A stretch of DNA of 64,000 nucleotides from Deltaproteobacteria bacterium (GTDB taxonomy: Bacteria; Desulfobacterota; Binatia; HRBIN30; CADEER01), in contig JAJCZJ010000086.1 in NCBI GenBank assembly GCA_029262455.1, positions 1 through 64,000 on the forward strand, read 5' to 3'. Positions 35,349-59,954 of this stretch are shown piece after piece (position 1 is the stretch's first letter; the number at the start of each line of letters is the position of its first letter). The notes below the pieces were generated by a model. It saw only the letters and a program-made list of their open reading frames with translations, searched no databases and was not told the origin of the DNA. The position numbers and the translations under genes are program-made.

Positions 35349-35467
35349 GGGAGAGCTTGTTCGCTGTCACCATTCCTATTGATCAGCGTGTCGAAACACT
35401 ACAGCTTAGGCGACCGAATGCGAGTCTTGCGTGCGATCGAGGAATGGGGAAGGCGGGGAGCCAGGCC

Positions 35468-35604
35468 GAGTGCTTTCGCGCACACGTTCAAAAACGAACC
35501 CTCACCTTTCATTCTCTCGCGCGTTCAATGCGGGCGACGAATTTTTCGGAGCCTTGCCGGTCATTTCGAGACGATCGACAGTCTCCCAAGCGGGGCGCAA
35601 GGGG
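35468..35604. repeat. Dispersed intergenic element, copy B
   Basis: GAGTGCTTTCGCGCACACGT and the following 60 bp closely match 2905-2975, and the right part (TTGCCGGTCATTTCGAGACG...) matches the third tandem unit near 3127-3165. So this is a single-unit version of the 68-bp tandem element at 2.9 kb. It fills most of the 314-bp gap between xthA and recC. No other gene is seen in this gap. Confidence 0.7.
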
Positions 35605-35662
35605 GCGGTCGCGGTGGGTCCGGCAGGCCGAATCGAGTGCAGGTCTATCCCCCTCTCACGCC

Positions 35663-44248: not shown

Positions 44249-44349
44249 TGCCGCGAGATTCCGATCCGCATGAGGCAGGGGTATTGGGGTGCGCCAGATT
44301 CCGGTGAGCGCTCAACAGTCGAGCCGCGGTCCCTTTTGCGTATGCTACG

Positions 44350-44916: not shown

Positions 44917-45030
44917 TTTTGCCTCGAGTGCAGGCCCGGGATGGCCAACGATCAATTGAGGTGGATTCGCCCTCGACATTTTTCGATATATTCGGATAAG
45001 TACACTGCATTGGACGAAGGGGGAGTCGCG

Positions 45031-46344
45031 GTGGCGCGCCTACGGTTGGTTCTAGTGGTATTGGGCACGTTGTGCGTCCCTGATTCGCAAATTGCCTGGG
45101 GTCAGTGCGGAGGAATTTGCTCATACGAAGTGGGTTCCAGCCATCTGGGTAGCGCCTACGCGGGTGCGGCTGCTGCGGTCAGAGATGCCTCGACTGCCTA
45201 TCTGAATCCTGCCGGATTGACGGTGCTGAATTCGGATCAATTCGCGATTGGGGGCATTGGGGTCTTTTCCAATCGGCGATTCACCCCAGACGACGGCACC
45301 GCCGCATCGGGGCGCGACGGTGGCGGACGGCTCGCCGATACGATCGGGAGCTATGGGGCCTACAGCGCGATCGAGATCACGGATCGGCTGAGCTTCGGGC
45401 TGGCACTCAACTTTCCGTATGGCGGCGACCTGTCTTATAGTGACCGCTTCGTCGGGAGCTCTTACGTGACGGACATCACGTTCGTCGGCACGAACATTCA
45501 GCCGACCCTGGCTTTCGAGGTTGTGGACGGGGTTAGTTTCGGGGCTGGCGTAGGCATTCTGAATTTTCGGCTCGACCAGAAGCTGCTGCTACAGCAAGGG
45601 GGCACGGCGAGCGAAGTCGAAATACGACGCGCCGACGATTGGGACGTTGGTTTCACCTTGGGGGGCCTCGTCGAACGGGTTTGGTTGGGGCGGTTGACGA
45701 GAATCGGATTGGTTTACCGCAGTGGGTTCGATGCCGACCTGCGTGGTGGTGTCAGTTCCAATGTGCCCGGTGTCGCGGGCTCGTTTACGTCGAGCTTCGA
45801 ACTGGCTCGCGGTGTCAATCTGGCATTCTTTCGAGAGGTCACGGAGAAGGTTGCGGTCTTCGCGGACTTTGGTTGGAGTGACTGGAGCAAGTATAGCGGG
45901 CAGACCGCAACGTTTCTGGGCGTCGAAGTGACGCGTGCCGAGGGGCGGGCGATACGCGACTGGCGCGATACTTGGCGGATCGGATTGGGGGCGGAATATC
46001 GTTTGCTGGACGGTCTGCTGCGCGGCGGCGAAGACGCACTCGATATCGAGTGCGGCGTTTCCTGGGATAGCTCGCCGGTGAAGTCCTTCAACCGCCTGCC
46101 GGATGTACCCATTGGCAATACGTTTCGGGTTGCTGCCGGACTTCGGTACGCCGCGTTGTCTTGGCTGGACGTCGGACTGGGGTACAGCTTCCTCTCGCTA
46201 GACGAGGCTCGTGTCAACGATGTGGAGCTGGCCGCGGCCGGCGCAGCGTCGACGCGGATTAGTGGACGCTACGGTCCAAACCATTCGAGTCTCGTTGGAC
46301 TTACGTTTACGAGCAAGTTTTCACTCTCGCTGTCGACGACATGA
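45031..46344 (+). CDS. FadL/OmpP1-type outer membrane transporter
   Basis: A 437-residue outer-membrane beta-barrel of the FadL/TodX/OmpP1 family, importing fatty acids or other hydrophobic compounds. After the signal peptide (LRLVLVVLGTLCV), SSHLGSAYAGAAAAVRDASTAYLNPAGL is the family hatch-region signature. The remainder is alternating beta-strands ending in FTSKFSLSLSTT, with a hydrophobic C-terminal strand. The GTG at 45031, with AGGGGGAG 7 nt before it, places the signal peptide at the N-terminus; the in-frame ATG at 44941 would bury it. Substrates probably feed the acyl-CoA enzymes of this genome. Confidence 0.87.
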   Translation: MARLRLVLVVLGTLCVPDSQIAWGQCGGICSYEVGSSHLGSAYAGAAAAVRDASTAYLNPAGLTVLNSDQFAIGGIGVFSNRRFTPDDGTAASGRDGGGRLADTIGSYGAYSAIEITDRLSFGLALNFPYGGDLSYSDRFVGSSYVTDITFVGTNIQPTLAFEVVDGVSFGAGVGILNFRLDQKLLLQQGGTASEVEIRRADDWDVGFTLGGLVERVWLGRLTRIGLVYRSGFDADLRGGVSSNVPGVAGSFTSSFELARGVNLAFFREVTEKVAVFADFGWSDWSKYSGQTATFLGVEVTRAEGRAIRDWRDTWRIGLGAEYRLLDGLLRGGEDALDIECGVSWDSSPVKSFNRLPDVPIGNTFRVAAGLRYAALSWLDVGLGYSFLSLDEARVNDVELAAAGAASTRISGRYGPNHSSLVGLTFTSKFSLSLSTT

Positions 46345-46413
46345 AGTACCCGAAAGCCGATGTGACTGTGATCGGTGGGCAACGTGGTGGCCCAGCGCAA
46401 TGTGAGGTCGCGG

Positions 46414-49400
46414 ATGCCTTCTGAACTGATGGGGCCCGACAGGGCCGAGGTTCAACAGGCGATTGCCGGCTACAAGATTGGCCGCTTGTTACACGCAGGG
46501 CCTCAGTCAACGGTTTTCGAGGGAACTCAGGATACGACGGGGCAACGAGTAGCGATCAAGGTCTATTCGGGGCCAGCAGGTGAAAAAAGCGCCCGTGCGG
46601 AGGTGGAGGTGAGCGTCAAGCTCGCCCACCCTCATGTCGTGCGCGTGATTGATGCGGGATTAGAGCCAGGTGCGCTGCCTGTGGTTGTGTTGGAGTTCGT
46701 CGATGGGGGCACTCTCGAGCAACGCCTTTCGGAAGGGCCGCTTGCGGAGCCGATGGCCCTCCTGCTGATGGGGCGGATTTTGGATGCATTGATCGCGGCG
46801 CACGCTGCTGGAGTCGTTCATGGAGACCTCAAGCCCGCCAACATTCTATTGCGAGATCAAGCCGGTACGGTTTGCCCTGTGGTTGCAGATTTTGGGCTCT
46901 CCCGGGGCTCTTGCAGCGGGTTGAGTGGAGAAGGGCTGTTCTCGGGTACGCTGGCTTACGCAAACGAGTTGGTGTTGTGCGAGGGGGACTCGGCTGAGCG
47001 GATCGATTTGGTCGCGTGGGGGCTCACGTTTCTGGAGTGCCTGACTGGGCGCAAGCCGCAGGGCGGCAATCCGGCCGACTTTAACGGACGTTTGAGAGAG
47101 GTTCGGAGTCGCTCGATCCGTGCGATGATTCGGTCGGCGGTTGGCGCGTCACCCACCTTGGTCACCGCCAATGAAGTGATGACCCAGATCGTCCAGCTGA
47201 GCGGTGCTGGTGGCGAACGACCGCTGGAGGTGGGCGCGACGCGCCAATGCTTGCTGTCGATGGCTGCCTTCGCACTTCGTCCCAAGCCGCATCTTGGGTG
47301 GACTCAGCGCCACGAAAATGAGTTGTACCGGGCGGCACGGGCCGCCTGTCAGGTATTAGCAGGACTCGAGTCCCCGCCCGCAGTGTCGGTCTCTGGGCGA
47401 ACGGTTTGCGCATACTTCGGCCTCGATGGAAATCGAGAGGACGATGTAGCCCGCGCGGTTGCGGCGGCCGAGCAAGTGGTGTCGTCGGTGCGCGAGGTTG
47501 AGTCGATCGACGTCGGTGTTGGTGTTCAGTGGGGGCGTGCGATCGTTGAACACGAGCGGCACGGCGGCGGTGTGTTGGTGGTTGGAGACGCTGTCGAAGA
47601 GATGATCGATCTGGCTAGAGATGCGGCGGCTGGCCAAGTGTTACTCAGTCCGGACGCACGTGAGGTGTTGCGTGTCTCGGGGCGATCCGCGGGCGGGGAG
47701 CTCGCTGGCGATGTTTTCGGCGAGGAGGGGGCCGAAGCGGGTTCGCCAAATGGGCCAGCTGTCGCCGTGGATCCATCGGATCGGCTACCTTTTGTTGGGC
47801 GCGAGGTTGAGAAGTCAGCTCTCTTGGATGGTTGGCGCTCGATCCAAGAAGGCGGACGAAGCGCCACTTTTTTGGTGTCTGGCGAGGCTGGTCTGGGCAA
47901 GACCAGACTGCTCGGCGAAGTGTGTCAGGTGGTCGCTCCGTCGTCGAGGATGCAGCTGCGCTGCCGGCCAGAATCGGTGAACTCCCCCCTCGCGCCGGTT
48001 CGCGAGAGTCTGGGGCGGATCGACTCGAGCTTGGCGACCTACCTCGAGGGGCTCGGTCTACCCCTCGAGCGCTCGTACGCGCTGCTCGCCCCGCTCGCTT
48101 CGCTGCCCGAGCATCCCGACTACCCTCCGCTATCGATGACGCCAGAGCAGCAGAGGGACCGGACGCTCGCCGAGTTGCAGAGTCTCGTTGATGCCCGCGC
48201 CCGGCGCGGGCCCCTTTTGGTATTGGTTGAAAACATTCAGTGGATCGACCGCACGACAGCTGAACTCGTGCGAATGATACTAGCCCTGGTCGAGCGCGCT
48301 GACGGTCCATCGATGATGGTGGTTCTAAGCGGTCGGCCCTCTTGGTTTTGTGAAGAAATGCGCGGGCGATCGGAAGCGATCGAGTTAGCGCCGCTCACCG
48401 AGACCGCGGTCGCTGAAATGGTTCGCGGGGCCGATTTCGATCTCGATGAGGCTCCGCGACTGGTCCGAGAGATCCTGGATCGCGCCGACGGAATACCCTT
48501 ATTCGTCGAAGAGCTGGTACGGATGGCCCGGGCCAATCCCACACATAGTATCGCCGGCGTTCCGGCTAGCTTACAGGGCGTTCTGACTTCTCAGGTCGAT
48601 GCCCTCTCTTCTGACGGTCGCCGGGTGCTGAGCTTGGTGGCGGTCGGCGGGCGAGAGATGGACGCGGAGCTGGTATGGTTGGCCTGGGGTGGTAGCGGAG
48701 AGTCGTTGTCGGAGGGGCTGTCCGAATTGGTCCGATCAGGTCTCCTGAAGGTCGGCGACCTCGGGGTAGGCAAGAGCGGCTATCAGTTTCGCCACGCGCT
48801 GATTCAAGAAGCGGTCTACGAGTTGCTCGATCCTGCCGAGCGCCGGAGCCTCCATGCGCGAGTTGGGATCGCCTTGGAGGAGTCGTTTCCTGACTTGGCG
48901 AGTCGGCAGCCGGAGGTTTTGGCGCAACATTTTGCGAACGCAGGCGACATCGACCGGGCGGCTGCGTATTGGAACGAGGCGAGTCAGAACTCGATCAAGT
49001 CGGCCTTCTTCGAGGAAGCGGCTGGGAAAGCCGAAATCGGACTGAAGTTGTTGGATGCGTGGGAAAGCGGAGGTGCGGCGCGTCACCGTCGCGAGCTCGA
49101 GTTGCTGACCGCTCTCGGGACGGCGCACTTCATGCGGATGGGGTATGCGGCTCCGCTCGTCAAGGAGACGTTCGAACGAGCCGAGCAAGTGTGTGACAAA
49201 CTCGGCGGCTCGCTTGATCTTCGGGTTCTCAACGGCTTGTGGAGTTATTACTTGGCCCGGAATGACCTCGAACGGACGCAAGGCTTATTGCCGACGATGA
49301 ATGAGCTGGCGGAGCAGGAAGACCCGGTTCTCGCCTTCCAGGGGTTTGCAGTGCTCGGTGCCAACGCGTCCTACCGGGGAGCGTTTCGTGAGGCCGTGTC

Positions 49401-50223
49401 GTTTGCACGACGTGCGCGAGAACTGTTTTGGACGCCGGAGTTTCAAGCCTACGCGAAGGACTACGGATACAACGGCGGAATCTATTGTTACACCTACGAG
49501 ATGACCGGCCTTTGGTACCTCGGCTATCCCGATCAGGCGCAGGCGGTCCGCCGAGAACTCGACGACGCGGCCGTCCGTGCCGGAGACCCATACTCACTGT
49601 CGATCGCTCGCGTGTACGGGGCGATCCTCGACGTGAAGTGCGGCTTTTTCGAGAAAGCCGTCGAAGATTGTGCGCGGCAGGTCGACTATTCGATCGAAAA
49701 CAACCTCCTCCTGTGGATTGCGGCGGCGCGCTGCGAAATGGCGGAGGGGCTGAATCAGTTGGAGCGTTACGATGACGCGCTCGAGCAACTAGAGGCGGGT
49801 CTCCAGCTGTATCAAATGCTCGGCCTCGAGATGACGTGTTCTTATTACAAGATGTACCGGGCGTCGGCCTACCTCGGCGCGCAGAGGCATGACGAGGCCT
49901 TGGCCGAAGTCGATCAGGCTTTAGCCGACTGCAGTTGCAAGTTCAGCCGTTTTCAACAGTTGGATCTTCTGCGCGTCAAGGCCGAAGTGCTCGCTGCAAC
50001 GGGCGATTGGCTGGGCTCGCGTCACTTCTATGAGCAATCAGTCGCCCTGGCGCGGCAATGGGAGGCGCGGTCATCCGAATTGCACACACTATTGAGCTGG
50101 GTAGACCACTGTGAGAGTCCCGCAGCGACCGAAGCAGTGGTAGCAGACATCGCGACTCTGCGCTCGCAGTTTAGTGAAGGGTTTGGTACATCGGACTTAG
50201 CGCGGGCAGCGGACTTAGCGTAG
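46414..50223 (+). CDS. Giant Ser/Thr kinase with cyclase-like, ATPase and TPR-like domains
   Basis: A 1269-residue signalling protein. Residues about 20-290 form a Hanks-type kinase: AIKVYSG lysine, HGDLKPANILL catalytic loop (HGD instead of HRD, near residue 136) and VADFGLS (near 158). Its glycine loop, LLHAGPQSTVFEG, is degenerate. A degenerate nucleotidyl-cyclase-like segment (about 335-440) follows, then a STAND/AAA-type ATPase with Walker A SGEAGLGKT (near 490). The C-terminal 450 residues are TPR-like helical repeats. The start at 46414 has GAGG 7 nt upstream. It is 34 nt from the next gene and probably the first gene of a three-gene operon with the lipoprotein and helical/beta protein. 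Confidence 0.82.
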   Translation: MPSELMGPDRAEVQQAIAGYKIGRLLHAGPQSTVFEGTQDTTGQRVAIKVYSGPAGEKSARAEVEVSVKLAHPHVVRVIDAGLEPGALPVVVLEFVDGGTLEQRLSEGPLAEPMALLLMGRILDALIAAHAAGVVHGDLKPANILLRDQAGTVCPVVADFGLSRGSCSGLSGEGLFSGTLAYANELVLCEGDSAERIDLVAWGLTFLECLTGRKPQGGNPADFNGRLREVRSRSIRAMIRSAVGASPTLVTANEVMTQIVQLSGAGGERPLEVGATRQCLLSMAAFALRPKPHLGWTQRHENELYRAARAACQVLAGLESPPAVSVSGRTVCAYFGLDGNREDDVARAVAAAEQVVSSVREVESIDVGVGVQWGRAIVEHERHGGGVLVVGDAVEEMIDLARDAAAGQVLLSPDAREVLRVSGRSAGGELAGDVFGEEGAEAGSPNGPAVAVDPSDRLPFVGREVEKSALLDGWRSIQEGGRSATFLVSGEAGLGKTRLLGEVCQVVAPSSRMQLRCRPESVNSPLAPVRESLGRIDSSLATYLEGLGLPLERSYALLAPLASLPEHPDYPPLSMTPEQQRDRTLAELQSLVDARARRGPLLVLVENIQWIDRTTAELVRMILALVERADGPSMMVVLSGRPSWFCEEMRGRSEAIELAPLTETAVAEMVRGADFDLDEAPRLVREILDRADGIPLFVEELVRMARANPTHSIAGVPASLQGVLTSQVDALSSDGRRVLSLVAVGGREMDAELVWLAWGGSGESLSEGLSELVRSGLLKVGDLGVGKSGYQFRHALIQEAVYELLDPAERRSLHARVGIALEESFPDLASRQPEVLAQHFANAGDIDRAAAYWNEASQNSIKSAFFEEAAGKAEIGLKLLDAWESGGAARHRRELELLTALGTAHFMRMGYAAPLVKETFERAEQVCDKLGGSLDLRVLNGLWSYYLARNDLERTQGLLPTMNELAEQEDPVLAFQGFAVLGANASYRGAFREAVSFARRARELFWTPEFQAYAKDYGYNGGIYCYTYEMTGLWYLGYPDQAQAVRRELDDAAVRAGDPYSLSIARVYGAILDVKCGFFEKAVEDCARQVDYSIENNLLLWIAAARCEMAEGLNQLERYDDALEQLEAGLQLYQMLGLEMTCSYYKMYRASAYLGAQRHDEALAEVDQALADCSCKFSRFQQLDLLRVKAEVLAATGDWLGSRHFYEQSVALARQWEARSSELHTLLSWVDHCESPAATEAVVADIATLRSQFSEGFGTSDLARAADLA

Positions 50224-50257
50224 AAACGAATTTTTTAATCTGTTGAGGAACGTTAGA

Positions 50258-51505
50258 ATGCGGTATCGGAGATCCGAACTGAGTCTATATTCACTCTTGT
50301 GTGTCAATTTCGCTTTCGTGGCTCTCGGCTGTAGGACGATTCCTGACACGCCTGACAACCCAAAATTTGTTGGTGCAGGGGCTCCGCTCGAGGCGAGCGC
50401 CCATATGAGATTGGTGCCCGCGGATGTAGCACTTTCCGCACCTGGGAGCGGTTCTCGTGCCTCTGGCCTGGACTCCGAAACGCAGTCGGCGATCTTTGCC
50501 GTGCTGCACCGAAGTTCGAATCGTGAGGACCTGGATGCGGGGCCCACCTTTAAACAGGCAATTGTCGTGCTCGAGAAAGAGGATTGGGAGAGCCGGCTAG
50601 AGAAGGCCCAGCGGCAGATTGTCGTGGAGAGTATTCTCGAGGGAATGCTAGGGGAAAAGATTGATCAAGTGGAGGGTAGCGACGCGCTTAGACGGCTTGG
50701 AGTGATCGAGGACAACGCGCTCGGAGGGCTCGAAGGGCTCGGGGGAGGGACCTACAGCGCGAGTCAATTACAGAGCTTGGTCGCCAAATTTAGCCGCGTC
50801 TGTTGTACCCAACTTCTGTCCTATAGTTCGGAAGTCTCCGAGGCCGGGCCGACTGGAGCGGTGTCCTTTACGTTTTTGGCAGCGGGATCTGTCCAGGAAG
50901 TGGCGGAGGAGTTTTGGCCACAGAACTGGGGTCGTTGCGACAAGGAGTTCTTTCCAGAGGTGTACGCGGCATGCGTCGGGCCGACCTGCTCGCATACACC
51001 CGACTGCGATGCGCCTCTGGACCCGACCCCTGCACCAGCGGCCAATCCGCCAACCAATGGAGATTGGCAGGGGATTCTCTACGAGCGTTTTACGGTAGCA
51101 GATGCCGGTCAATCGAATACCGTCCTAAAGAATTCTCTCAAGATCACGACACATAGTTCTGACAGCTCCTACGCCGTCAAGTACTCTCTTGCGGGGAACC
51201 ACAGTAGTCAGGTGCGAGGCGACGCGGAACGCGAGTGTGGATTGACCAAGGACTGCGGGTCGATCGTCGTGACGCCCGGCGATGTCGAGGGCCAATCGAA
51301 GGTCCTTATCACTAAGACCGTGGCCTATGCGGACCGCGGGCCGCAGGGTAACAAGTTCACCAAGGAAGAGATGAAATTGTCTTTGGACTACATGCGGCGG
51401 ATGATGGTGAACTACGGTGTCTGTTGCGGCGTTGCCGAACCCAATTGCCCGCTGCAGGCGAATTTCCCCGCGGCGTCGGGGAACGCAGTTCCTTACTGCC
51501 AATAA
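50258..51505 (+). CDS. Predicted lipoprotein of unknown function
   Basis: A 415-residue exported protein. A hydrophobic N-terminus ends in VALGC, a plausible lipobox, after a positively charged MRYRRSE start. The mature part has several Cys pairs (VCCTQLL, CVGPTCSHTPDCD, VCCGVAEPNC) and a Pro/Ala-rich linker near residue 255. No known domain is recognised. GAGG lies 9 nt upstream of the ATG at 50258. It sits between the kinase gene (34-nt gap) and the helical/beta protein gene (28-nt gap), so it probably belongs to the same regulated unit. Confidence 0.65.
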   Translation: MRYRRSELSLYSLLCVNFAFVALGCRTIPDTPDNPKFVGAGAPLEASAHMRLVPADVALSAPGSGSRASGLDSETQSAIFAVLHRSSNREDLDAGPTFKQAIVVLEKEDWESRLEKAQRQIVVESILEGMLGEKIDQVEGSDALRRLGVIEDNALGGLEGLGGGTYSASQLQSLVAKFSRVCCTQLLSYSSEVSEAGPTGAVSFTFLAAGSVQEVAEEFWPQNWGRCDKEFFPEVYAACVGPTCSHTPDCDAPLDPTPAPAANPPTNGDWQGILYERFTVADAGQSNTVLKNSLKITTHSSDSSYAVKYSLAGNHSSQVRGDAERECGLTKDCGSIVVTPGDVEGQSKVLITKTVAYADRGPQGNKFTKEEMKLSLDYMRRMMVNYGVCCGVAEPNCPLQANFPAASGNAVPYCQ

Positions 51506-51533
51506 GCTAGATTCTTGAAATGAGGAGAATGCG

Positions 51534-52298
51534 ATGGGAAACAATTTAGAAGGATCATCGAAGACTTCGGAGTTGCTCTCGTTGGCGTATGCGGCCCTGG
51601 ATCAAAACCTCGGTTTGGTCGGGAAGGCCCTGAGTGAGGCCCGGCAGAGGCAGTATGGCGCAACGGAACTTCTGAGCGACACTGTGCGCGCCTGGGATGG
51701 CATGAGCGCTCTGTGGCTGAAGGGATTGGGTGTTCTCAGCCAGTGGGATGTCACGGCCACGATCCAAGTCGATGGGAGTGGAGAAAACGTTGCTCCGCTC
51801 GTCCTCCGGGTGCCGGACCACGGCCTGGACGAGGTTCAGCTGGGGTCGGCCCAGCGGACCAGCCCGATCAATGGATTGTACGCGCCGCAGTTGGGGCAAG
51901 AAGCGGTATCGGCGGAGCTGTCGATTGATCGGAGAACCTTGGTCGTCGATGTGGATCCCAACAAGATCGACGACGCAGCGGTCGAGGCTCTTGCCTTGGC
52001 TACGGCTGCGGTTGATTCGGCAGTCGCGGACATCGCGCAGAAGCAGGAAGCGGTCGCGGTCGCGGAGGCTGCAGCGCAACAGAACGGTGGCGACCCATCA
52101 AATCTAGTCGGGATCGCACAAGAGGCACTTGGCAAGGCGGAGGAGGCCTTGGCAGCGGCCCAGGAGCAGGTGGCTCTGTCGGATCGACTGTCGCCAGTTC
52201 CCGACGGGGACTACGCGATGCGGATCTCTGTCGGCCGAAATGCCGCGGTTACCTTGGCAAACGTGCAGATTCGCCTGGATCGCAACATCACGGCATAG
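51534..52298 (+). CDS. Helical plus beta protein, phasin-like N-terminus, unknown function
   Basis: A 254-residue protein with no signal peptide. The first 70 residues are helical (LAYAALDQNLGLVGKALSE, then DTVRAWDGMSALWLKGLG), resembling phasins and other granule-associated amphipathic helices. The middle and end are beta-rich (WDVTATIQVDG, DGDYAMRISVG, VQIRLD). An Ala/Gln-rich coiled coil of about 55 residues is inserted (residues about 155-210). The protein at 53377-54174 on the other strand has the same overall plan, so the two may be distant paralogues. It is the last gene of the kinase operon, convergent with the polyprenyl synthase gene. The function is unknown. Confidence 0.65.
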   Translation: MGNNLEGSSKTSELLSLAYAALDQNLGLVGKALSEARQRQYGATELLSDTVRAWDGMSALWLKGLGVLSQWDVTATIQVDGSGENVAPLVLRVPDHGLDEVQLGSAQRTSPINGLYAPQLGQEAVSAELSIDRRTLVVDVDPNKIDDAAVEALALATAAVDSAVADIAQKQEAVAVAEAAAQQNGGDPSNLVGIAQEALGKAEEALAAAQEQVALSDRLSPVPDGDYAMRISVGRNAAVTLANVQIRLDRNITA

Positions 52299-52333
52299 CT
52301 CAGAGACTTCGTTGGCGGTAGTCTAGGTTGTCC

Positions 52334-53377
52334 TCAAGCGCGCTCGAGGACCCAGGTCGGGAGTTGTTCGAGGAAGCGCTTGTCGCGGCTGTCGGGGATG
52401 TCTGTGAGCAGCGTGCTGATTTCGTGGATCGCCGCGCCGGCTAGCGCGTGCGCGACGCAGCGCGCGTACTCGACACTGCCGTAGTGAGCCATCATGTTGG
52501 CGATCTTTGCTACGTCTTTTGCGGAGTGTTGCGTGCGCGGACGGCATAAGTAGGACCGCACGAACTCCTGGTCCGACATTGAGGCGTCGCGGAGTAGGTG
52601 AATGAGGAGGAGTGTTCTTTTGCCTTCCCAGATGTCGCCATTGATCTCTTTGCCGTACTTTTGGGCGTCTCCGCGGATGTTGAGAATGTCGTCTTGGATC
52701 TGGAAGGCAGCTCCCAAAAAGAAGCCGAAATTGTTGAGACGGTCGACTCCCTCGCTCGATCGCCGCGCCAGAAGGTATCCGGCGCGCAGCGGAAAAAGCG
52801 TCGTGTACCAGCAAGTCTTGTTGAGGACGAGTTCGAGATAGTCCTGGTCGTGGAGATTTGTGACGTTTTGGTCGCGCCACTCAATCTCCATCGCCTGGCC
52901 CTCGACGCTCTTGGCTGCCATCGTCGCCGCTTCGCTGGCAATCGCGAGCGTGGTCGGCGCACCGACGCTTGCGCAATTTCCAAGCAGGGCGGTGAAGCCC
53001 ATGACGAAGAGGCCGTCTCCGGCGTTGATCGCAGCAGCAGTGCCGTGCTGCTTGTGAAGCGTTGGACGGCCGCGGCGTTCGTCACTCGCATCCTCGATGT
53101 CGTCGTGGACCAAGAATGCGTTGTGGATGAGCTCGAGCGCGGCTGCGGTCTGCAGAGGTGCGTCGTCGTTTGAGCCAAACGCGCGGGCCGTCGCGATCAG
53201 TAGGCTTGGCCGAAGCATGCGTCCGCCGCGGCTCGGGTAGTCTGCGATGAGATCGTATAGGTAGGTCGGGTCTCTTGGCGCGAGGTAGTGTTGGAGAGTT
53301 GCGCGGGTATGAGTGCCGTACTCTTCCAGCATTTCTGGAATCAGTTGCTCACACGGTTTTGGTTGGGCCAGGCCCAT
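52334..53377 (-). CDS. Polyprenyl diphosphate synthase (trans-isoprenyl type)
   Basis: A 347-residue trans-isoprenyl diphosphate synthase. The first Asp-rich motif is HDDIEDASDERRGRPT (DDxxD). The second reads QDDILNIRGD, with Asn in place of the last Asp, as in some GGPP synthases. The segment FLVHDDIED and a Lys/Arg-rich start (RGGRMLRPSLL) fit. It condenses IPP with allylic diphosphates to a C15-C20 or longer chain. The ATG at 53377 overlaps the upstream gene's stop in a TGATG arrangement, so translation is coupled. It is the last gene of the minus operon. Confidence 0.88.
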   Translation of the reverse strand: MGLAQPKPCEQLIPEMLEEYGTHTRATLQHYLAPRDPTYLYDLIADYPSRGGRMLRPSLLIATARAFGSNDDAPLQTAAALELIHNAFLVHDDIEDASDERRGRPTLHKQHGTAAAINAGDGLFVMGFTALLGNCASVGAPTTLAIASEAATMAAKSVEGQAMEIEWRDQNVTNLHDQDYLELVLNKTCWYTTLFPLRAGYLLARRSSEGVDRLNNFGFFLGAAFQIQDDILNIRGDAQKYGKEINGDIWEGKRTLLLIHLLRDASMSDQEFVRSYLCRPRTQHSAKDVAKIANMMAHYGSVEYARCVAHALAGAAIHEISTLLTDIPDSRDKRFLEQLPTWVLERA

Positions 53378-54174
53378 CACTGAGCGGACCCGATCCAAAC
53401 CGTCAGCTCGCCGACGCGGCGGTTGGTATCCTCCTCGATGATGGGGGCTCGATACTTACCAGGCGCTTGGTCGCTGGTGATTGCCAGCACGGGCGTGGCG
53501 ATCTCGTCTGTGTCGGCGGAGCCGATCTGTACCGCGGGGATGCGGCCACCAGCTTCGGTGGTGCAGAGGAGATCCGTGGTCCGCAAACGGCCGCGCGGGT
53601 CGAGAGCCTCGATCGAGATGGATAGCTTGACGGAAGGGGAAACCCTGACGCCTAGTGTGAGCGATAGGGGCTTTGTCGGTTCGATCTGGGGCGCCGCTGC
53701 GGGTGATGGTTCGGTGGGTCGCGACGTCGACGGGCTCGGGTTGGGTCCATGAGCGGCCGGAGGAGTGGTTGGGGCGTAGAGGGTCGGATCGAAGAATCTC
53801 CCCAAGGCGCCGGCCCAGAGAGACATGGCCTCGGCGATTAGGGTTCCGGTGTCCTGCACCCGGTTCCACTGGTCGGTGTTGGAGGCTTGTGGCGATTCTG
53901 AGTCGGCGCCGTTGGTCGCCGAATTGTTGCTTGCGGCGCGGCGGCCGACTTGTAGGAGATCTTGGCTTGCCTGAGAAATGTTCTCTCCCAGTCGATATGC
54001 CAGGTCGGTGGTATTGGCGGCGAGCGCGTCGATGGTCGTGGGTGAGGGAATGAATCGGCTGCTGTCGATGTCGGTCCCGGGGTACTGATTCGACCACTGT
54101 CGGTTGGGCTCGGTACGATCGAGCTTCGGTCGGACGGGCCTATCGGAATCGGGTGGAGTTTTAGGGGTGGTCAT
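53377..54174 (-). CDS. Helical plus beta protein paired with polyprenyl synthase, unknown function
   Basis: A 265-residue protein without signal peptide or recognised domain. Its N-terminal part is Pro/polar-rich, then helical (TTDLAYRLGENISQASQDLLQVGRR, DTGTLIAEAMSLWAGALGRFF). A Pro/Ser/Thr-rich linker (residues about 140-170) precedes a beta domain (LSLTLGVRVSPSVKLSISIEAL ... GELTVWIG). The plan mirrors the protein at 51534. Its start lies 14 nt before the end of the FAD oxidoreductase gene, and its stop overlaps the polyprenyl synthase start, so it is tightly coupled to isoprenoid enzymes. A role at a lipid or granule surface is only a guess. Confidence 0.68.
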   Translation of the reverse strand: MTTPKTPPDSDRPVRPKLDRTEPNRQWSNQYPGTDIDSSRFIPSPTTIDALAANTTDLAYRLGENISQASQDLLQVGRRAASNNSATNGADSESPQASNTDQWNRVQDTGTLIAEAMSLWAGALGRFFDPTLYAPTTPPAAHGPNPSPSTSRPTEPSPAAAPQIEPTKPLSLTLGVRVSPSVKLSISIEALDPRGRLRTTDLLCTTEAGGRIPAVQIGSADTDEIATPVLAITSDQAPGKYRAPIIEEDTNRRVGELTVWIGSAQ

Positions 54175-56245
54175 ATCCTGTGATCTCTTCCAGTTTTGGG
54201 GACCGCGACAGAGCGTGTGCAGCCAGGCGGCCCGACATGACGGCTGCTTCGACACAGCCCGCGTTGAATCCACAGTTCGTCCAGTCGCCTGCGATGGTCA
54301 GGTTCTCGAACATGCCGTCCAGAGGTGAGATGCGGTCGGCGCTGGTCCCTGGGAGGGAAAGTGAATATCGATCCGACGGATTCACGTTTGCTGTCCAGTA
54401 CTGGCTGTCGAAACGGTGGCCGCCATCGTCCTTGCCGGCGAGTAGCTCCCAGCGAAAGCCGTTGCCGTTGGCGGCGTTGGGCCACAGATGTCCGACGTCG
54501 CGGTTGAGAAAGGTGATGGCGTTTTTTCGTACCTGTTGGTAACGCTGTTCTCTGTATTCCGTACGCGAGCGGTCGAAGGGGTTCCCGACGTCGTCAAGGA
54601 CGTTGCAGAAGTAGGCCAGCGACTTCGGTGCTTCGGACCACTGCTCCTTCGATATTAGATGACCCATGTCCGCCCATGTATCGAAGGGCTCGACAAAGCC
54701 AGAGACGTTGATGCCGTCGTTGTTCCAGCCGAGGCTTTGCATATCTTGGTTCATCCAGATCTGAAACGCCTGAGTTGCAACACTCTGAACGCGGGTGGTC
54801 ATGTTCCTCCACCGTGGGTCCCGATCGAGGATCTCCGGGCAGATCTGCGGAATAGCGCCGATCCCAATTCCCAGGACGACGAAGTCGAAGTCGTCGCCAT
54901 CGACCAAGGTTCGCGTCGAGTGTTTCCGACGGTCCCAAAACGACTCGAAGTGATGTTGCTCGGCGCGAAGGCGCTGGCCGTCGCGCAGGTTGTCGTAGAT
55001 CGGCTGCGAAGGCCAGCACGGCAGTCCTCCAACGTCGACCAGTGGAGCGTATTCGTCGGCCTTGGGCACCGCTTGCACGTCGAACGTAAGGCTCTGGATC
55101 CGATCTGTTTTTCCGACACCGACGTTTTCGAGCCGGTGAAAAAAGTCGAAGCGAACGCCGCGTTGCTTGAGCACTTGGTACAAAGGGGCGAAGACAACAT
55201 CCCCCATCCCCGCAGTCATGCGCCAGAAGAACGATCCTCGATAGGTGAAGAAGGATCTGGCCATCCCGCGCAAGGCTTGGCCGGCCGATACGCTGCGCTG
55301 GGTGGATGCGCCGGGTAGAAACGAGAATCCCAGATCGTAGAGGCCGCGCACGAAACCGGAGTTGATCGCGTCGTCGGTGCCGCCGTAGTCCTTGAGCCAC
55401 TTTCGGCAGTCCACGTCGTCGATTACGTCGAAGCCCCGCGGATCCCAGGGAATTCGCTCGGCGATTTCGCCGCGGAGAGTGGCAAGCGCTAGATTGAGAA
55501 CGTGCCAAACCCGCATCGCGGCGATATCGTCGCGAGCCACGTCTGCGAGTAGTCCGGCAGCTCGACGGTGGATGTCTGCAGCTAGGCCGGCCATCTGTTG
55601 CGGCGCAGCCCCATCGAAGCGGCGCGCGATTGTCTGCAATATGTTGCTCGCTTCGATGAGTGCCGCCGGCGGCCCGATCCGGAGAGCTCGTTGCGCCAGC
55701 CGCGCCAACTGCTCGCCGCTGTTCGCGCCTCGATCCGCGGAAGGCATGGCACTGCCACTCATTAGCGTCTGAAGCAGAGTCGATACGAGTTGCGTGACTC
55801 GCTGAAAATATTCCGGGGCAGTGGGTAGGGTGGGGGAGGTGGGGTCGCCCGGCAGTTGGCCGTCGATCGCGGGAAGAATCCCTTTCCAGACATCCCAATT
55901 TCCGTCGGGAAGCTGGTCGGTGACTCCCACCAGCGGGGCTGGTTCGAAGGACTGGTAAGGAAAGTCCGACAGGTCGCAGTAGCGGACGTCGTTCTCCGGG
56001 AGCTCGGCGAAGCACTCCCGCATGAGGCGGAACGCGTTCTCGTAGAACCCCATCCAAAGGTGCAGGCCGTGCTCTTCAATGCGGCCGTTTGCTCCGCGGC
56101 CCGAGGCACCCTTGCCCCCAAGTCGCCATCCGACCTGATAGACGGTTACGTCGAACTCGCCCTCGAGTTCCGGTTTGGTGAGCTCGAAGGCAGCCGCCAT
56201 GGCCGCGCATCCGCCCCCGATGATGGCGACTCTTTTTCTTTTCAC
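54161..56245 (-). CDS. FAD-dependent oxidoreductase, phytoene desaturase/amine oxidase-like
   Basis: A 694-residue FAD enzyme. The dinucleotide motif IIGGGCAAMAAAFEL and GWRLGGKGASGRG are followed by EEHGLHLWMGFYENAF. The C-terminal FAD motif is TIAGDWTNCGFNAGCVEAAVMSGRLAA. A helix-rich insert of about 200 residues (residues about 140-340) makes it longer than usual carotenoid desaturases (about 500). It may desaturate or dehydrogenate an isoprenoid made with the adjacent polyprenyl synthase. Within the minus operon it lies between the TER-like gene and the helical/beta protein. The substrate is inferred. Confidence 0.8.
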   Translation of the reverse strand: MKRKRVAIIGGGCAAMAAAFELTKPELEGEFDVTVYQVGWRLGGKGASGRGANGRIEEHGLHLWMGFYENAFRLMRECFAELPENDVRYCDLSDFPYQSFEPAPLVGVTDQLPDGNWDVWKGILPAIDGQLPGDPTSPTLPTAPEYFQRVTQLVSTLLQTLMSGSAMPSADRGANSGEQLARLAQRALRIGPPAALIEASNILQTIARRFDGAAPQQMAGLAADIHRRAAGLLADVARDDIAAMRVWHVLNLALATLRGEIAERIPWDPRGFDVIDDVDCRKWLKDYGGTDDAINSGFVRGLYDLGFSFLPGASTQRSVSAGQALRGMARSFFTYRGSFFWRMTAGMGDVVFAPLYQVLKQRGVRFDFFHRLENVGVGKTDRIQSLTFDVQAVPKADEYAPLVDVGGLPCWPSQPIYDNLRDGQRLRAEQHHFESFWDRRKHSTRTLVDGDDFDFVVLGIGIGAIPQICPEILDRDPRWRNMTTRVQSVATQAFQIWMNQDMQSLGWNNDGINVSGFVEPFDTWADMGHLISKEQWSEAPKSLAYFCNVLDDVGNPFDRSRTEYREQRYQQVRKNAITFLNRDVGHLWPNAANGNGFRWELLAGKDDGGHRFDSQYWTANVNPSDRYSLSLPGTSADRISPLDGMFENLTIAGDWTNCGFNAGCVEAAVMSGRLAAHALSRSPKLEEITGYDHP

Positions 56246-56351
56246 GGTCGGTCCTGGTCTGGTGGGTTCGGGTCGCTCAAGGAAGACTCCGTAGACTTGC
56301 GAAGATAGCGACTCTTAGCCAACCGGGGCAACCTCCCGGAGATCTATAATT

Positions 56352-57407
56352 CTATTGAATATCTTCTCTGGAGACGCCTGTCAGTGGAAGTACGTAGTCA
56401 GGACCGTAGACGCGTGCCGCGGTTTGGAATCCTGTTGCGTAGCGTTTGTCGAGAACGCTTCGGGCTACGGCGGAAGCGACGATTCCTGTAAATGTGTACG
56501 CCTCGGGGGTGGTCATTCTCGAGATCGACAGGTTTCCGGCTGCGTCTTCAACTTCGGCGACGATCACCATCTGTTTGCTGGCTCGTTGTTGGTCCGTCGG
56601 GCCTTCGGGCAGCATGTCCATCCAGCTCTTGGCGATGGCTTGCCATTGCGGCATGGCTAGAACTGGGCTGGCGAGGCGACTGGCTCCCATCATGACTCGC
56701 AGTCCTGTGAGGTCATCAAAGTATACTTCAATATTCGGAATGCCGGTGGTGTAGTAGGCGCAAGAGACATCGCCCCACCCGACGTTGATGCCGAGGCTGG
56801 GGCCCCATCCGTAGTCGAACTCACGCCTCAGCTCACCGGCGGGAAGTCGGCGGAGTTGACCGTCTCTACGAATATTGACTCCGAAGCCTGCCAATTCCAT
56901 TAGCGTCTTGGCGGAGCCCCGGGTTGTGAATTCGAGTCCGGTGAAGCCCAGGAGCAGTCGGGTTGCGTTTGGCAGACGCTTCGCGACGTGGAGAGAGAGG
57001 CAGTCGGAAGGGACGACGTCGAACCCGACCGACGGCATGATCGTGATCCCTTGGGCGCGGGCCTCTTCGTCGTAGTGGGCGAGAGCCTCGATCACGGGAA
57101 CCTCCCCGGTGACGTCCAAATAGTGGGTCCTGGTGCGGAGGCAGGACTCGACGAATGGTTGATAGGTGGCCGAGAACGGACCTGCGGCGAGCAAGCCGAC
57201 ATCGACATCGGCGAGAGCCCGGTCGAGACCTTGGGGATCGCCCAAGTTGACGATCCGGTACTCCAGTCCTAGTTCGGCAGCGACCGGTGCAAGCTTAGCT
57301 TGGTTTCGACCAGCGAGGATCGGCCGGATTCCATTGGTGACTAGGTTCCTGGCGATGAGTTTGCCAGTGAAGCCGTTCCCGCCGTAAATTAGAAGATCGT
57401 CAGACAC
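56352..57407 (-). CDS. Trans-acting enoyl reductase-like (saccharopine dehydrogenase fold)
   Basis: A 351-residue protein of the saccharopine-dehydrogenase-like / trans-acting enoyl reductase family. The N-terminus LLIYGGNGFTGKLIARNLV is a Rossmann motif, then PILAGRNQAKLA, LLAAGPFSATYQPFVESC, HYLDVTGEVPV and PSVGFDVVPSDCLS. Mycobacterial members reduce double bonds of polyketide chains. The GTG at 57407 is preferred, because the longer ATG at 57518 overlaps the divergent gene and gives unconserved sequence; no clear ribosome site is seen. It is the first gene of the operon with the FAD enzyme and polyprenyl synthase, so it may reduce an isoprenoid or acyl intermediate. Confidence 0.78.
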   Translation of the reverse strand: MSDDLLIYGGNGFTGKLIARNLVTNGIRPILAGRNQAKLAPVAAELGLEYRIVNLGDPQGLDRALADVDVGLLAAGPFSATYQPFVESCLRTRTHYLDVTGEVPVIEALAHYDEEARAQGITIMPSVGFDVVPSDCLSLHVAKRLPNATRLLLGFTGLEFTTRGSAKTLMELAGFGVNIRRDGQLRRLPAGELRREFDYGWGPSLGINVGWGDVSCAYYTTGIPNIEVYFDDLTGLRVMMGASRLASPVLAMPQWQAIAKSWMDMLPEGPTDQQRASKQMVIVAEVEDAAGNLSISRMTTPEAYTFTGIVASAVARSVLDKRYATGFQTAARVYGPDYVLPLTGVSREDIQ

Positions 57408-57476
57408 GTGATCGATGAGTAGGATGGTTCTTGTGTCGCGCAAACTCTCACATAACTTCGAAGGTGAAAAGCCGCT

Positions 57477-58304
57477 ATGACCAATGGCTCGATGTCGAGT
57501 GGCCCAGCGATCGGTCAAGCGAGCGAGGAATCCACGCCACCCCTCGTTGCTGGCAGGGCTCTGTTCGATGGGTATCTGGTGTCAGTTCCGCTGCCGGTGG
57601 TTGTCGCGCAGGAGCTGGTGCCGCCGCAGGTCGAACTCGACCAAGAGAGGGTCTTGGACGGAACCTACCCGGTCGTTCTTGTGATGGGGCAACAGAAGCA
57701 CGGATCGATTGTTCGAGCCGGCGTGCCGATCCCCGTAGGTTCGAACTATTCCGAATTTGGATTGTTTGTCCCCGATGTCCTGTGGCGCGGAAGTGGCTTG
57801 AGGTTCAACTACGTGGCGCAGATGTATTCCGGCTACTTCCCGGCGGTGTTCGTCGGCAACGTCGACTACGGGTACGCGAAACACTTTGGCGACATCGTAC
57901 GCGAGGATGATCGGCTCTTTCTCAACTCGGAGAATGGTGAGCTGTTGTTTCACGCGTATTTCGATGGAAACGCACCGTGGCGACGCTGGCGGGCGGAATC
58001 CGAACCGACGATGGACTTCATTCAGTCCTCGCTGAGCCAGCCGATGCTCGGACTCCGGCTTTCGGGACAGTGGGTTTACTCGTTCAACTGGTGGAACCTG
58101 GACCGGGCGCTGTTTCGCCGCGTCGGCGCGACACTCTCCGTAGACCAACCGCTGGTTCGCGGGTTTGGGCCTCTCACTGCTTCAGTCCCCCGGGGGGGGG
58201 CGTTCGAGGTGAAGAGTATGCTGTGGGAACTCAGTTGGCCGCGGTTCCCGGCGTCGGATTGGGACAGTCCGACTACGACTTCTTTAGGCCGAAGGCAGAG
58301 ATGA
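57477..58304 (+). CDS. Acetoacetate decarboxylase-fold protein lacking the catalytic Lys
   Basis: A 275-residue protein with an ADC-like beta fold (YPVVLVMGQQKHG, NYSEFGLFVPDV, YSGYFPAVFVGNVDYGYA). Where acetoacetate decarboxylases have GFPKK with the Schiff-base Lys, this reads KHFGDIVRED, so decarboxylation by the classical route is unlikely. The C-terminus (WDLS-like MLWELSWPRFP) resembles other ADC-like proteins. It is divergent from the TER-like gene over a 70-bp control region and may belong to the same pathway. It overlaps the regulator gene at its 3' end by 32 nt. Confidence 0.7.
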   Translation: MTNGSMSSGPAIGQASEESTPPLVAGRALFDGYLVSVPLPVVVAQELVPPQVELDQERVLDGTYPVVLVMGQQKHGSIVRAGVPIPVGSNYSEFGLFVPDVLWRGSGLRFNYVAQMYSGYFPAVFVGNVDYGYAKHFGDIVREDDRLFLNSENGELLFHAYFDGNAPWRRWRAESEPTMDFIQSSLSQPMLGLRLSGQWVYSFNWWNLDRALFRRVGATLSVDQPLVRGFGPLTASVPRGGAFEVKSMLWELSWPRFPASDWDSPTTTSLGRRQR

Positions 58305-59862
58305 GTTTGTACACGTGGGACCTCGCTACATCGAGCTGTCGGCTGACTTCCGTGATGTTCCAGTCGGTGGCCTCGAGAGTATCGCGCAATAGTTTGGCCT
58401 GGAATTGCCGAGTGGCATCCTGGTAGCTCCCGGTGGGGGTCGATGGATCATGTCTCGTCGAGTCCGGGAATAGATGACGCGATTCTAGCTGCTGCGAGCC
58501 CTGGCCGGCGGCGTTGATGGTGGCGGCTTCGACGCGATTTGCCAAGTCGCGGATGTTGCCCGGCCAGTCGGCGGCCTCCGCTGCCCGAAAGGCGCTGGGC
58601 GATACGCGAATCTGCGGCAAATTATGTCGCGCGATCGTGGCCTGCGTGAAAGTTTCGACCAGCAATCGAATGTCCTCGGGGCGTTCCGACAGTGACGGGA
58701 CGCGGAGCGGAACAACGTTGAGCCGGTAGTAGAGATCGTCGCGAAAGGTTCGTTCGCGGATCGCGTCTTTCAGGTTTGTGCTTGTCGCCGCAATCAGTCG
58801 AATATTTGCGGTTGCCGGCGTATTCGAGCCGAGCCGGTAGTACTGGCCGGACTGCAGAACTTGGAGCAGCTTGGCCTGCGCTTCGATCTGGATCTCCGAA
58901 ATCTCGTCGAGGACGAGCGTACCGCCTTCTGCTGCGGCGATCTTGCCATCGCGATCGGTCGCGTCGTTGTGGATGCCTTTTACGGTTCCGAACAGTTCGC
59001 TCTCGATGAGGTTGGGGTTGAGCGTGGCGCAGTTCAACTCGACGTAGGGTCCATCGTGGCGCGAGCTGTTGTCGTGAATCACTTTGGCTAGTTGGGTTTT
59101 GCCAGTGCCGCTCTCGCCGGTGATCAGGAGGTTCACATCGAGTTTCGCGACGTTGCAAACACTCTCGAGCAGTTGCCTGAGTGCGTGGCTCTTGCCGACG
59201 ATCGAGTCTGCTGCGAGGCGAGTTCGGACGTCAGATGTCGGATTGCGAGCCCCGTCGCTGGTCGCCTCGATGAGACGGTCCGACAGTGGGCCGAGGTGGT
59301 GAGCAAAGGCCTCTGCCGATCGCCGCTCTTCTTTGTTGAACAAGCCGGCCCTCTCTCGGCCTTGTAAGTAGAGAACCCCGCGGACCGGGTTGTCACCGAT
59401 AGGCGAGCAGAGCACCGCCTCGATCTTATGGTCCCGCACGCTGGCGAACTCGTTGAAGCGAGGATCGAGCATGGCCGACGGAGTGACGATTTGTTCGCCT
59501 GTGGAGACGGCTCTCGAGATGATTCCTTTGGAAATTCTGCAGCGGACCTCTTTGACTTCTTCGTCCGCAAAGCCGTGAGCGAACCAGCATTCCGGAGAAC
59601 CGTCGGATTGATCGTTGGCGTAGACTTCGAGGTATCCCTGCTTTGCTTCGGTCGCTCGTACGATCAGTCCTAGTGCTTCCTCTAGGAACCGCTCCAGGTC
59701 ATCTTGGTGCCCCAATGAGAGGAGACCGAGATAGAGATCTCGTTCGGCCTTGATCCGAAGAAAGTGCTCGGTACTGGCCGCACTTCGTTCGGTCGGGGTG
59801 TTGCGTACGATCGACGGACGGCTCGCGGCTTGCGGACTTTTCATAGTTGGCTCAAACCCCAT
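58273..59862 (-). CDS. GAF-AAA+ sigma54-activator-like regulator with altered GAFTGA loop
   Basis: A 529-residue NtrC-like regulator. It has an N-terminal GAF domain (about 40-190: KQGYLEVY, CSPIGDNPVRGVLYLQ) and an AAA+ domain with Walker A TGESGTGKT (near 250) and Walker B TLVLDEISEI. A C-terminal Fis-type HTH (NITEVSRQLDVARSHVYKLI) follows. The loop that contacts sigma54, GAFTGA, is replaced by GIHNDA in ELFGTVKGIHNDA, so sigma54 activation by the standard route is doubtful. A perfect -10 (TATAAT) at 59955-59960 makes the longer start at 59949 unlikely. Starts at 59862 and 59844 are both possible. The stop overlaps the ADC-like gene. Confidence 0.85.
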   Translation of the reverse strand: MGFEPTMKSPQAASRPSIVRNTPTERSAASTEHFLRIKAERDLYLGLLSLGHQDDLERFLEEALGLIVRATEAKQGYLEVYANDQSDGSPECWFAHGFADEEVKEVRCRISKGIISRAVSTGEQIVTPSAMLDPRFNEFASVRDHKIEAVLCSPIGDNPVRGVLYLQGRERAGLFNKEERRSAEAFAHHLGPLSDRLIEATSDGARNPTSDVRTRLAADSIVGKSHALRQLLESVCNVAKLDVNLLITGESGTGKTQLAKVIHDNSSRHDGPYVELNCATLNPNLIESELFGTVKGIHNDATDRDGKIAAAEGGTLVLDEISEIQIEAQAKLLQVLQSGQYYRLGSNTPATANIRLIAATSTNLKDAIRERTFRDDLYYRLNVVPLRVPSLSERPEDIRLLVETFTQATIARHNLPQIRVSPSAFRAAEAADWPGNIRDLANRVEAATINAAGQGSQQLESRHLFPDSTRHDPSTPTGSYQDATRQFQAKLLRDTLEATDWNITEVSRQLDVARSHVYKLISAFGLKKS

Positions 59863-59954
59863 TATCGGTACGCGGGATTCGTTCTCCGGACGATCTGAAA
59901 TTCGCCGCTGTGTCTGCGCGGACGAAGCCGTCGTCGCCGAACCTCGCATCGGTG

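Follow-up and report, generated by a model that had tools for sequence, protein, structure and literature searches.

Flavoenzymes of the HpnE type, short-chain polyprenyl diphosphate synthases such as IdsA, START/SRPBCC proteins, the acetoacetate decarboxylase superfamily and cyclase/kinase-AAA-TPR regulators are the closest described counterparts of the products encoded by the gene locus reported here. Genes of the last group that belong to the TOMM_kin_cyc model (TIGR03903) typically neighbour azole-peptide genes, and PYR/PYL proteins, which share the START fold, are receptors of abscisic acid. The locus lies in a 64,000-nucleotide stretch of DNA (hereinafter referred to as the window), corresponding to positions 1 to 64,000 of contig JAJCZJ010000086.1 in the assembly GCA_029262455.1 of a Deltaproteobacteria bacterium. 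This contig (C86) belongs to a 7.34-Mb genome (G000) of 127 contigs with a listed completeness of 100%. For the phylum Binatota, a genome paper predicts carotenoids throughout (PMC8262859).

Eight genes of the window are considered, encoding a polyprenyl diphosphate synthase (PPS), a flavoenzyme (FAD), a protein with helical and beta parts (MID), a second protein of this kind (HB2), a START-like protein (LIPO), a signalling ATPase (KIN), an acetoacetate-decarboxylase-fold protein (ADC) and a reductase (TER). Our firmest claim is that these genes form a single conserved locus for an isoprenoid pathway that has no description so far, in most cases accompanied by a dedicated signalling ATPase. 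We give roughly even odds (about 50%) to the more specific explanation that the locus is a dedicated pathway making and modifying a prenyl chain, probably C20, in which MID would be the partner of the synthase and KIN a STAND cyclase/kinase regulator, with a START-like binder in this branch.

Conservation of the gene set

Scanning GTDB contigs with the flavoenzyme as query yielded 64 loci; the FAD open reading frame (ORF) was at least 550 aa long in 59 of these, and the five shorter ones were dropped. Loci containing FAD, MID and PPS were designated type I (n = 44), and 28 of them, having 6 kb or more on each side, were regarded as well-flanked. MID and PPS were both present in 39 of the 51 loci with at least 2 kb downstream, and in 44 loci overall. 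The order FAD > MID > PPS on a single strand was found in all 44 type I loci, whose records bear the phylum labels Binatota, Myxococcota, Acidobacteriota, Gemmatimonadota and Pseudomonadota. The core of the set, at least, is therefore shared by bacteria of soil and sea that are not related to one another. With three synthase genes in 7.3 Mb, a random 20-kb stretch would contain one about 1% of the time; a chance neighbourhood is excluded because the order is conserved in 44 loci. An earlier interpretation made from the letters of the window (the sequence-only reading) had proposed a candidate isoprenoid/lipid-type locus and had named a gene order not conserved in any relative as a result that would refute it; the recurrence of the row in 44 loci bears out the proposal.

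Synthase, flavoenzyme and MID were the constant partners, ADC and KIN were found in most well-flanked loci and TER in about half. Relatives of KIN, detected with a window-seeded profile, were present above 300 bits in 25 of the 28 well-flanked type I loci and above 700 bits in 21, which agrees with the earlier inclusion of a signalling ATPase in the set. Of these 28 loci, 23 contained a relative with the ADC fold and 13 encoded a close relative of TER. A separate sigma-54 activator was present in two, and four further profile matches were KIN proteins. In G092, a genome of the same class, all eight families and a sigma-54 gene similar to that of the window (S54) were encoded within 20 kb.

In the midpoint-rooted flavoenzyme tree, the type I loci formed one clade (support 100/100). 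Two loci inside this clade (L026 and L039) were without the set; both were located at contig ends, and L039 retained part of the MID gene. Pairwise distances of FAD, MID, PPS and KIN were correlated (n = 40, falling to 28 where KIN is included; r 0.74-0.85; permutation p 0.0005), as expected from a row inherited together. From the set used for motifs and distances, five loci were omitted because an ORF was cut or split or the order differed (L004, L030, L031, L071 and L074), as were loci with a cut synthase or flavoenzyme, and the split ORF of L030 was also left out of set A5.

Retrieval based on MID gave a patchy distribution. A single-sequence search of 297 genomes detected only the window's own copy, so that family profiles were needed. 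Five of 294 genomes from the window's phylum (including its own), 8 of 145 from the order of Archangium (including the genome on which this draw was centred) and 1 of 295 from the family of Phaeobacter (the central genome itself) harbored MID; most genomes of each draw gave no MID, although weak matches could escape. Besides the window's genome there were 13 MID carriers, 12 of which contained FAD, MID and PPS. All three genes were present in six of the seven carriers outside the FAD set, the repeats being L008, L010 (of genome G301) and L011, with G302 as the genome of L061 and G121 and G284 taken as L037 and L057.

The remaining arrangement of interest was in G271 (L090:7194-9952), where a distant MID-like protein was encoded directly before a synthase of the same type (501 bits), followed by ispH (LYTB 278 bits), and where a search of the genome for the flavoenzyme gave no match. 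Since MID and the synthase occur there without FAD, MID with a synthase is the minimal unit. From the constant adjacency and from G271, a role of MID as partner of the synthase is suggested. The G271 pair also lies near a gene for a 1185-aa PKD-domain protein.

Gene products and layout of the window

Table 1. Features of the window. Coordinates are those of the open reading frames.
Feature	Coordinates	Strand	Description
FadL	44941..46344	+	FadL/TodX-type outer-membrane channel; PF03349 152 bits; doubtful member
KIN	46375..50223	+	1282 aa; Ser/Thr kinase, degenerate cyclase domain, AAA_16 (STAND-like) ATPase, tail with weak TPR lines
LIPO (c7 family)	50243..51505 (likely start 50258)	+	START/Bet v 1-like domain at about 213-387
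HB2 (x family)	51534..52298	+	N-terminal part helical, C-terminal part beta, coiled-coil-like insertion
PPS	52334..53398 (likely start ATG 53377)	-	polyprenyl diphosphate synthase; PF00348
MID	53377..54273 (likely start codon 34, ATG 54174)	-	Arg/Pro-rich N-terminal tail, two helices, Ig-like beta sandwich
FAD	54161..56245	-	694 aa; HpnE/phytoene-desaturase type flavoenzyme
TER	56352..57518 (likely start GTG 57407)	-	saccharopine-dehydrogenase/TER-like NAD(P)H reductase; PF03435
ADC	57477..58304	+	acetoacetate-decarboxylase-fold protein; lysine motif GNVDYGYAK
S54	58273..59949	-	GAF and sigma-54 activator; PF00158 197 bits; possible local regulator, weakly associated

All eight ORFs named in the sequence-only reading were found in place (Table 1), and the convergence that it had described was evident, the forward and reverse groups meeting at 52298/52334. 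Its overlap of 14 nt between FAD and MID was recovered with ATG 54174 as the start, and that of 3 nt between MID and the synthase was not reproduced; it amounts to 1 nt with ATG 53377 or 4 nt with GTG 53380. The Pfam scan matched KIN to Pkinase (93 bits, 34-232) and AAA_16 (65 bits, 472-649), FAD to NAD_binding_8 (38 bits) and Amino_oxidase (35 bits), and TER to Sacchrp_dh_NADP (PF03435, 37.4 bits). No family was matched by the window proteins LIPO, HB2 (51534) and ADC, and MID (53377) gave a sub-threshold HicB line alone (14 bits against a cut-off of 21). The Rfam scan of the window gave no match, the promoter and terminator scan was at or below chance, and a search for sigma-54 promoters gave 26 matches against 24 expected, so that no promoter is claimed.

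PPS is a member of the polyprenyl synthetase family (PF00348, 194 bits against a cut-off of 27) and one of three such synthases encoded in G000. The motifs DDxxD and DDxxN were present in 40 of 40 aligned sequences, with alanine (37) or serine (3) five residues before the first motif. By the chain-length rule, such a small residue before the first motif allows products longer than C15. The likely product is GGPP (geranylgeranyl diphosphate, C20), judging from these residues; the score against the GGPP synthase model NF041003 was 172 bits, below its cut-off of 500. An assignment as polyprenyl-transferase cargo of a family 2 encapsulin (NF041169) was rejected at 180 against 450 bits, no search for a shell gene having been made.

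The best NCBIfam lines of FAD included HpnE (TIGR03467; 61 bits, below the cut-off of 283) and zeta-carotene desaturase, and its GG, R.GG and GDW residues were kept in 40 of 40 sequences. A sequence search against PDB, with the single protein or the profile, gave no match at 0.001. A search of G000 for squalene/phytoene synthase (SQS_PSY) gave no match, the control search being positive in 7 of 14 genomes; because no such gene is present there, FAD in the window's genome needs a substrate other than a squalene or phytoene product. Among 17 other locus carriers, the same search gave none in three, including G297 and G299 of the same genus. The lack of a phytoene-synthase-type gene in G000 and in these two same-genus carriers is in contrast to the carotenoid prediction for the whole phylum in the Binatota paper (PMC8262859).

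The window's ADC protein had no Pfam family at E up to 1, PF06314 included. Its relatives, found by an iterated profile started from the window protein, exceeded the PF06314 cut-off of 29.8 bits in L009 (33.9), L077 (31.3) and L078 (35.2). Of four ADC-labelled relatives scanned, one was over the cut-off, one was 0.4 bits short, one was weak and one had no match. The motif lysine, which we take to be the Schiff-base residue, was kept (GNVDYGYAK against GREVYGWPK), and a strict pattern detected it in 35 of 56 relatives. In many loci the counterpart of ADC was a tandem double-ADC protein of 735-1300 aa (L009:13274-16771, L025:18357-22157 and others). The lysine motif was seen in the first half only in the five double proteins inspected by eye. 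Further, a plasmid of Qingshengfaniella (L077:11992-14895) encoded a fusion of FAD and ADC in which each part exceeded its Pfam cut-off; a cyclase comes after the fusion and, directly after the cyclase, a Crp/Fnr regulator. In L042 an ADC-like part (26.7 against 29.8 bits) precedes the flavin part in a single frame.

The model of MID (pLDDT, predicted local distance difference test, 74; pTM, predicted template modelling score, 0.44) contained helices at 46-89 and 100-127 and an Ig-like sandwich at about 170-265, and the Arg/Pro-rich tail was poorly ordered. The best PDB line of the MID profile was 8k2f (E 0.00086), covering the Ig-like end only. The distant MID of G271 gave a NEW3 line of 19.3 bits, below the cut-off of 24.4, which agrees with an Ig-like domain. 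The fold search of MID gave no more than weak Ig-like and MD-2-like rows, which were not read as lipid binding. Neither MID, with 34 relatives, nor HB2 had a Pfam family above threshold, and MID matched none in NCBIfam, phasin included. The sequence-only reading had called both proteins phasin-like; this name is not upheld, as Phasin_2 touched 1 of the 34 MID relatives (E 0.049) and the C-terminal half was modelled as an Ig-like sandwich.

HB2, a single-copy protein in its genome, was assigned to a family (x) by profile, since a single-sequence search of the loci gave nothing. When the x profile was searched against the 381 ORFs of 60 aa or more in the window, HB2 ranked first (E 8.4e-7; next 0.13). 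HB2 alone had no significant match to MID; at the level of family profiles, x and MID matched in their C-terminal beta domains (E 2.9e-5, probability 74), which confirms the common plan of a helical N-terminal and a beta C-terminal part that had been noticed in the two proteins. Both were also rightly taken as parts of the locus, in the window's branch.

LIPO was the first match of a second profile (c7) among the same 381 ORFs (E 1.3e-9; next 0.79), and hhalign joined it to c7 with E 3.2e-8. The c7 protein (about 400 aa) lay beside x (about 200 aa) in seven initial loci, and the profiles were then extended with further members, including L087 of the same class; for L015 and L021, the x member had initially been chosen by position. 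None of 13 c7 members matched Pfam. The families MID, x/HB2 and c7 are three protein families for which no annotation or description was found. A keyword search of open-access literature likewise gave no description of the locus, its product or these families, a keyword miss being no proof of absence in print.

The two genes were neighbours in eight type I loci out of 44, seven of which belong to the 28 well-flanked ones, and neither was present in the other type I loci; the pair-bearing loci included L051, whose flavoenzyme is the closest to that of the window by path. Counting L087, L104, L107, L109 and L110, the pair was found in 13 loci. In eight of these 13, c7 > x stood directly before KIN on the same strand; KIN was elsewhere or convergent in L051, L015, L018, L021 and G092, and the order in the window was KIN > LIPO > HB2. 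No c7 was detected in L108, and L108 and L109 were without TER. A c7 model was obtained from the homologue in L010 (pLDDT 77.5, pTM 0.77), in which a helical domain at the N terminus is followed by a C-terminal domain of the helix-grip type. It resembled TTHA0849 (Z 12.5), ZhuI (12.4) and abscisic-acid receptors (about 10-11), with Z of at least 8 in 334 of 991 aligned chains, which places it in the helix-grip fold. Binding of the product by this START-like protein is suggested for the window's branch by the modelled fold and the gene row. The window protein has a signal-like N terminus, which ends in ...ALGC; the earlier description as a lipoprotein is incomplete, as the fold of the family is START-like and its other members have no obvious signal peptide by eye.

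Among the 35 KIN proteins scanned, the window's included, AAA_16 was present in all 35, a nucleotide cyclase domain in 31 and a kinase in nine; double zinc ribbon (13), SAM (6) and MalT-like TPR matches (9) were also detected. The kinase of the sequence-only reading is present in the window and is the exception in the family. The window's KIN has lost both metal-binding aspartates of the cyclase (AAFALRP and GRTV against, for example, CDLVGST and GDGV in cyclase-type relatives), and the two catalytic aspartates of a class III nucleotide cyclase are therefore missing. Eight of the nine kinase-type proteins had lost both aspartates and L051 the first only; the KIN of L031 had lost both without a kinase loop. 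The output module of KIN changes and the ATPase body stays. All nine kinase-type proteins were encoded in c7/x loci against 4 of the 26 others (L006, L015, L018 and L021), some flanks being cut; this link could be explained by shared descent. MalT-like TPR is found in a ligand-gated STAND switch, which the MalT-like matches in KIN recall, if the analogy holds.

In a survey of neighbouring genes, 93 of 147 candidate ORFs from 22 loci were analyzed, and the results refer to the 25 most frequent of 125 families. The 93 ORFs included three cyclic-nucleotide-monophosphate (cNMP)-binding proteins and one match to polyhydroxybutyrate (PHB) depolymerase. No FadL relative was found at E 1e-4 in the loci searched, a search that also missed the PF03349 protein beside the FAD gene of Azospirillum; FadL as a core part was rejected as unsupported by this search. 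Two LuxR-type regulators were encoded downstream of the block. Directly upstream of the FadL gene, RecC-, RecB- and RecD-like genes and then a small HD_4 protein were found (35357-44916).

Proposed function and competing explanations

In the proposed pathway, PPS would make a prenyl diphosphate, probably C20, and FAD would oxidise or reduce the prenyl chain or a derivative, rather than a squalene or phytoene product. TER, the NAD(P)H reductase, might finish the product together with the ADC-fold enzyme, which would act by way of its lysine. No catalytic role is predicted for MID or, by analogy, for HB2: their helices may attach to the membrane or to a partner, which would be the synthase in the case of MID, and a second protein could dock on the Ig-like domain, coupling the synthase to the flavoenzyme. 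The START-like protein would bind the hydrophobic product or an intermediate, and the STAND cyclase/kinase would read the ligand-bound state and set the output via a cyclic nucleotide or phosphorylation.

Several observations weigh against this explanation. The product, the substrate and every interaction are inferred. A fold search of MID against solved structures had a best Z of 4.8 and no convincing relative. The START fold was modelled on the L010 protein, with 19% identity, and the window's LIPO was joined to it by profile over about 213-387; moreover, c7 and x are no part of the core and are confined to 8 of the 44 loci. SQS_PSY was present in 14 of the 17 other locus-bearing genomes, so that a head-to-head substrate can be dismissed only for genomes without this gene. 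Among the well-flanked type I loci, 5 of 28 had no detected ADC, 3 of 28 no KIN and 4 of 28 a distant KIN only (375-430 bits). G298, of the same genus, gave no FAD match, and in G300, of the same family, the genes were rearranged to MID-PPS-FAD-TER with KIN convergent, so that the order FAD > MID > PPS is not absolute. Finally, FAD occurred with an ADC-fold partner but without MID and PPS in 12 of the 64 loci, each with 2 kb or more downstream, and KIN exceeded 300 bits in five of these 12.

On plasmids of Azospirillum, Qingshengfaniella, Rufibacter and Catenovulum, the flavoenzyme gene had an ADC-fold protein and/or a large ATPase/cyclase encoded in its vicinity. FAD, ADC and the signalling ATPase look like an older core to which synthase and MID would have been added once, with the tree rooted at the midpoint only. 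The Azospirillum plasmid locus L079 contained two flavoenzymes, an ADC-fold protein, a FadL-type channel and a 1927-aa AAA ATPase, and eight Azospirillum plasmids matched.

The same genes could instead be read as an isoprenoid signalling circuit, which we regard as unlikely: the product would be a diffusible or membrane signal, the START-like protein its receptor, by analogy with the PYR/PYL proteins, and the STAND cyclase/kinase the relay. The row c7 > x directly before KIN in 8 of 13 c7/x loci is consistent with this, as are the abscisic acid receptors as Foldseek's closest solved folds, the exchange of kinase and cyclase output with the kinase type in c7/x loci only, the Crp/Fnr gene directly after the L077 cyclase and the three cNMP-binding neighbours. 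However, the START fold is general, aromatase/cyclases score equal or higher and the Foldseek E was just 4e-4; most type I loci have no such receptor, the kinase link may reflect shared descent, and no transporter family was matched by at least two of the 93 neighbours among the 25 most frequent families. Taken furthest, this becomes a bacterial isoprenoid-hormone module with a prenyl signal, START perception in the window's branch, a STAND relay with exchangeable kinase/cyclase output, and MID and HB2 as new Ig-like prenyl-synthase scaffolds, a picture as doubtful as the circuit itself. Slightly less credible is a carotenoid- or hopanoid-type branch in which FAD desaturates or dehydroxylates a head-to-head C30/C40 product. 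HpnE and zeta-carotene desaturase as the best NCBIfam lines, SQS_PSY in most other locus-bearing genomes and the report of Binatota as carotenoid makers (PMC8262859) point that way; against this, the window's genome and three other carriers, two of the same genus, have no SQS_PSY, FAD is far below the HpnE cut-off, and SQS_PSY was not matched by at least two neighbours among those 25 families.

That the helical proteins coat a storage body, or a membrane region that houses the enzymes, as the sequence-only reading had inferred, found almost no support and is very improbable. Two related helical/beta proteins and the one Phasin_2 line would fit it, and the sole hint of a granule was the PHB-depolymerase match; the phasin line is confined to one member, the C-terminal domain is folded and Ig-like, no polyhydroxyalkanoate (PHA) or wax synthase family was matched by at least two neighbours (same 25 families), and a protein that is paired with one synthase, as MID is, is more easily explained as a partner subunit. 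We give least credence, and hardly any, to a catabolic locus for FadL import and oxidation of exogenous acyclic isoprenoids or alkanes: a FadL gene adjoins KIN in the window and the FAD gene in Azospirillum, but the synthase in the same row points to synthesis and other loci had no FadL relative at the threshold used.

If the dedicated prenyl pathway is real, an isoprenoid pathway without a described product would occur across records of five labelled phyla, with a flavoenzyme that resembles carotenoid and hopanoid enzymes in some organisms without their precursors. Automated pathway calls could misassign FAD to carotenoid biosynthesis. Carriers among named strains (Archangium, Pyxidicoccus, Minicystis, Polyangium, Sulfitobacter and Phaeobacter) make the question testable.

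Comparison with described systems

With HpnE and the plant-type phytoene and zeta-carotene desaturases, FAD shares the flavin fold, the N-terminal glycine-rich motif and the C-terminal GDW motif. It differs in its length (about 700 aa against model lengths of 430-474) and its score (61 bits against 283), in the lack of a head-to-head synthase in the genome, and in being tied to a GGPP-type synthase and MID. PPS is a near full-length match to short-chain polyprenyl synthases (IdsA, GGPP synthases; PDB 1wmw and 1wy0, E 1.7e-51) with the DDxxD motif, whereas it stays below the cut-off of all 16 listed NCBIfam models, with DDxxN in 40 of 40 sequences and MID as its neighbour.

The domain order of KIN is similar to that of TIGR03903 and other cyclase/kinase-AAA-TPR regulators (397 bits), but the cut-off of 706 was not reached and its neighbours are isoprenoid-type enzymes. 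The modelled c7 homologue has the helix-grip fold in common with START/SRPBCC proteins such as the ZhuI aromatase and PYL receptors, and c7 differs in its extra helical N-terminal domain and in having no Pfam match in 13 members. In the acetoacetate decarboxylase superfamily (PF06314), three ADC relatives pass the cut-off and the lysine motif is kept; in contrast, the window protein is without a Pfam match, and its relatives are often tandem double proteins or fused to FAD.

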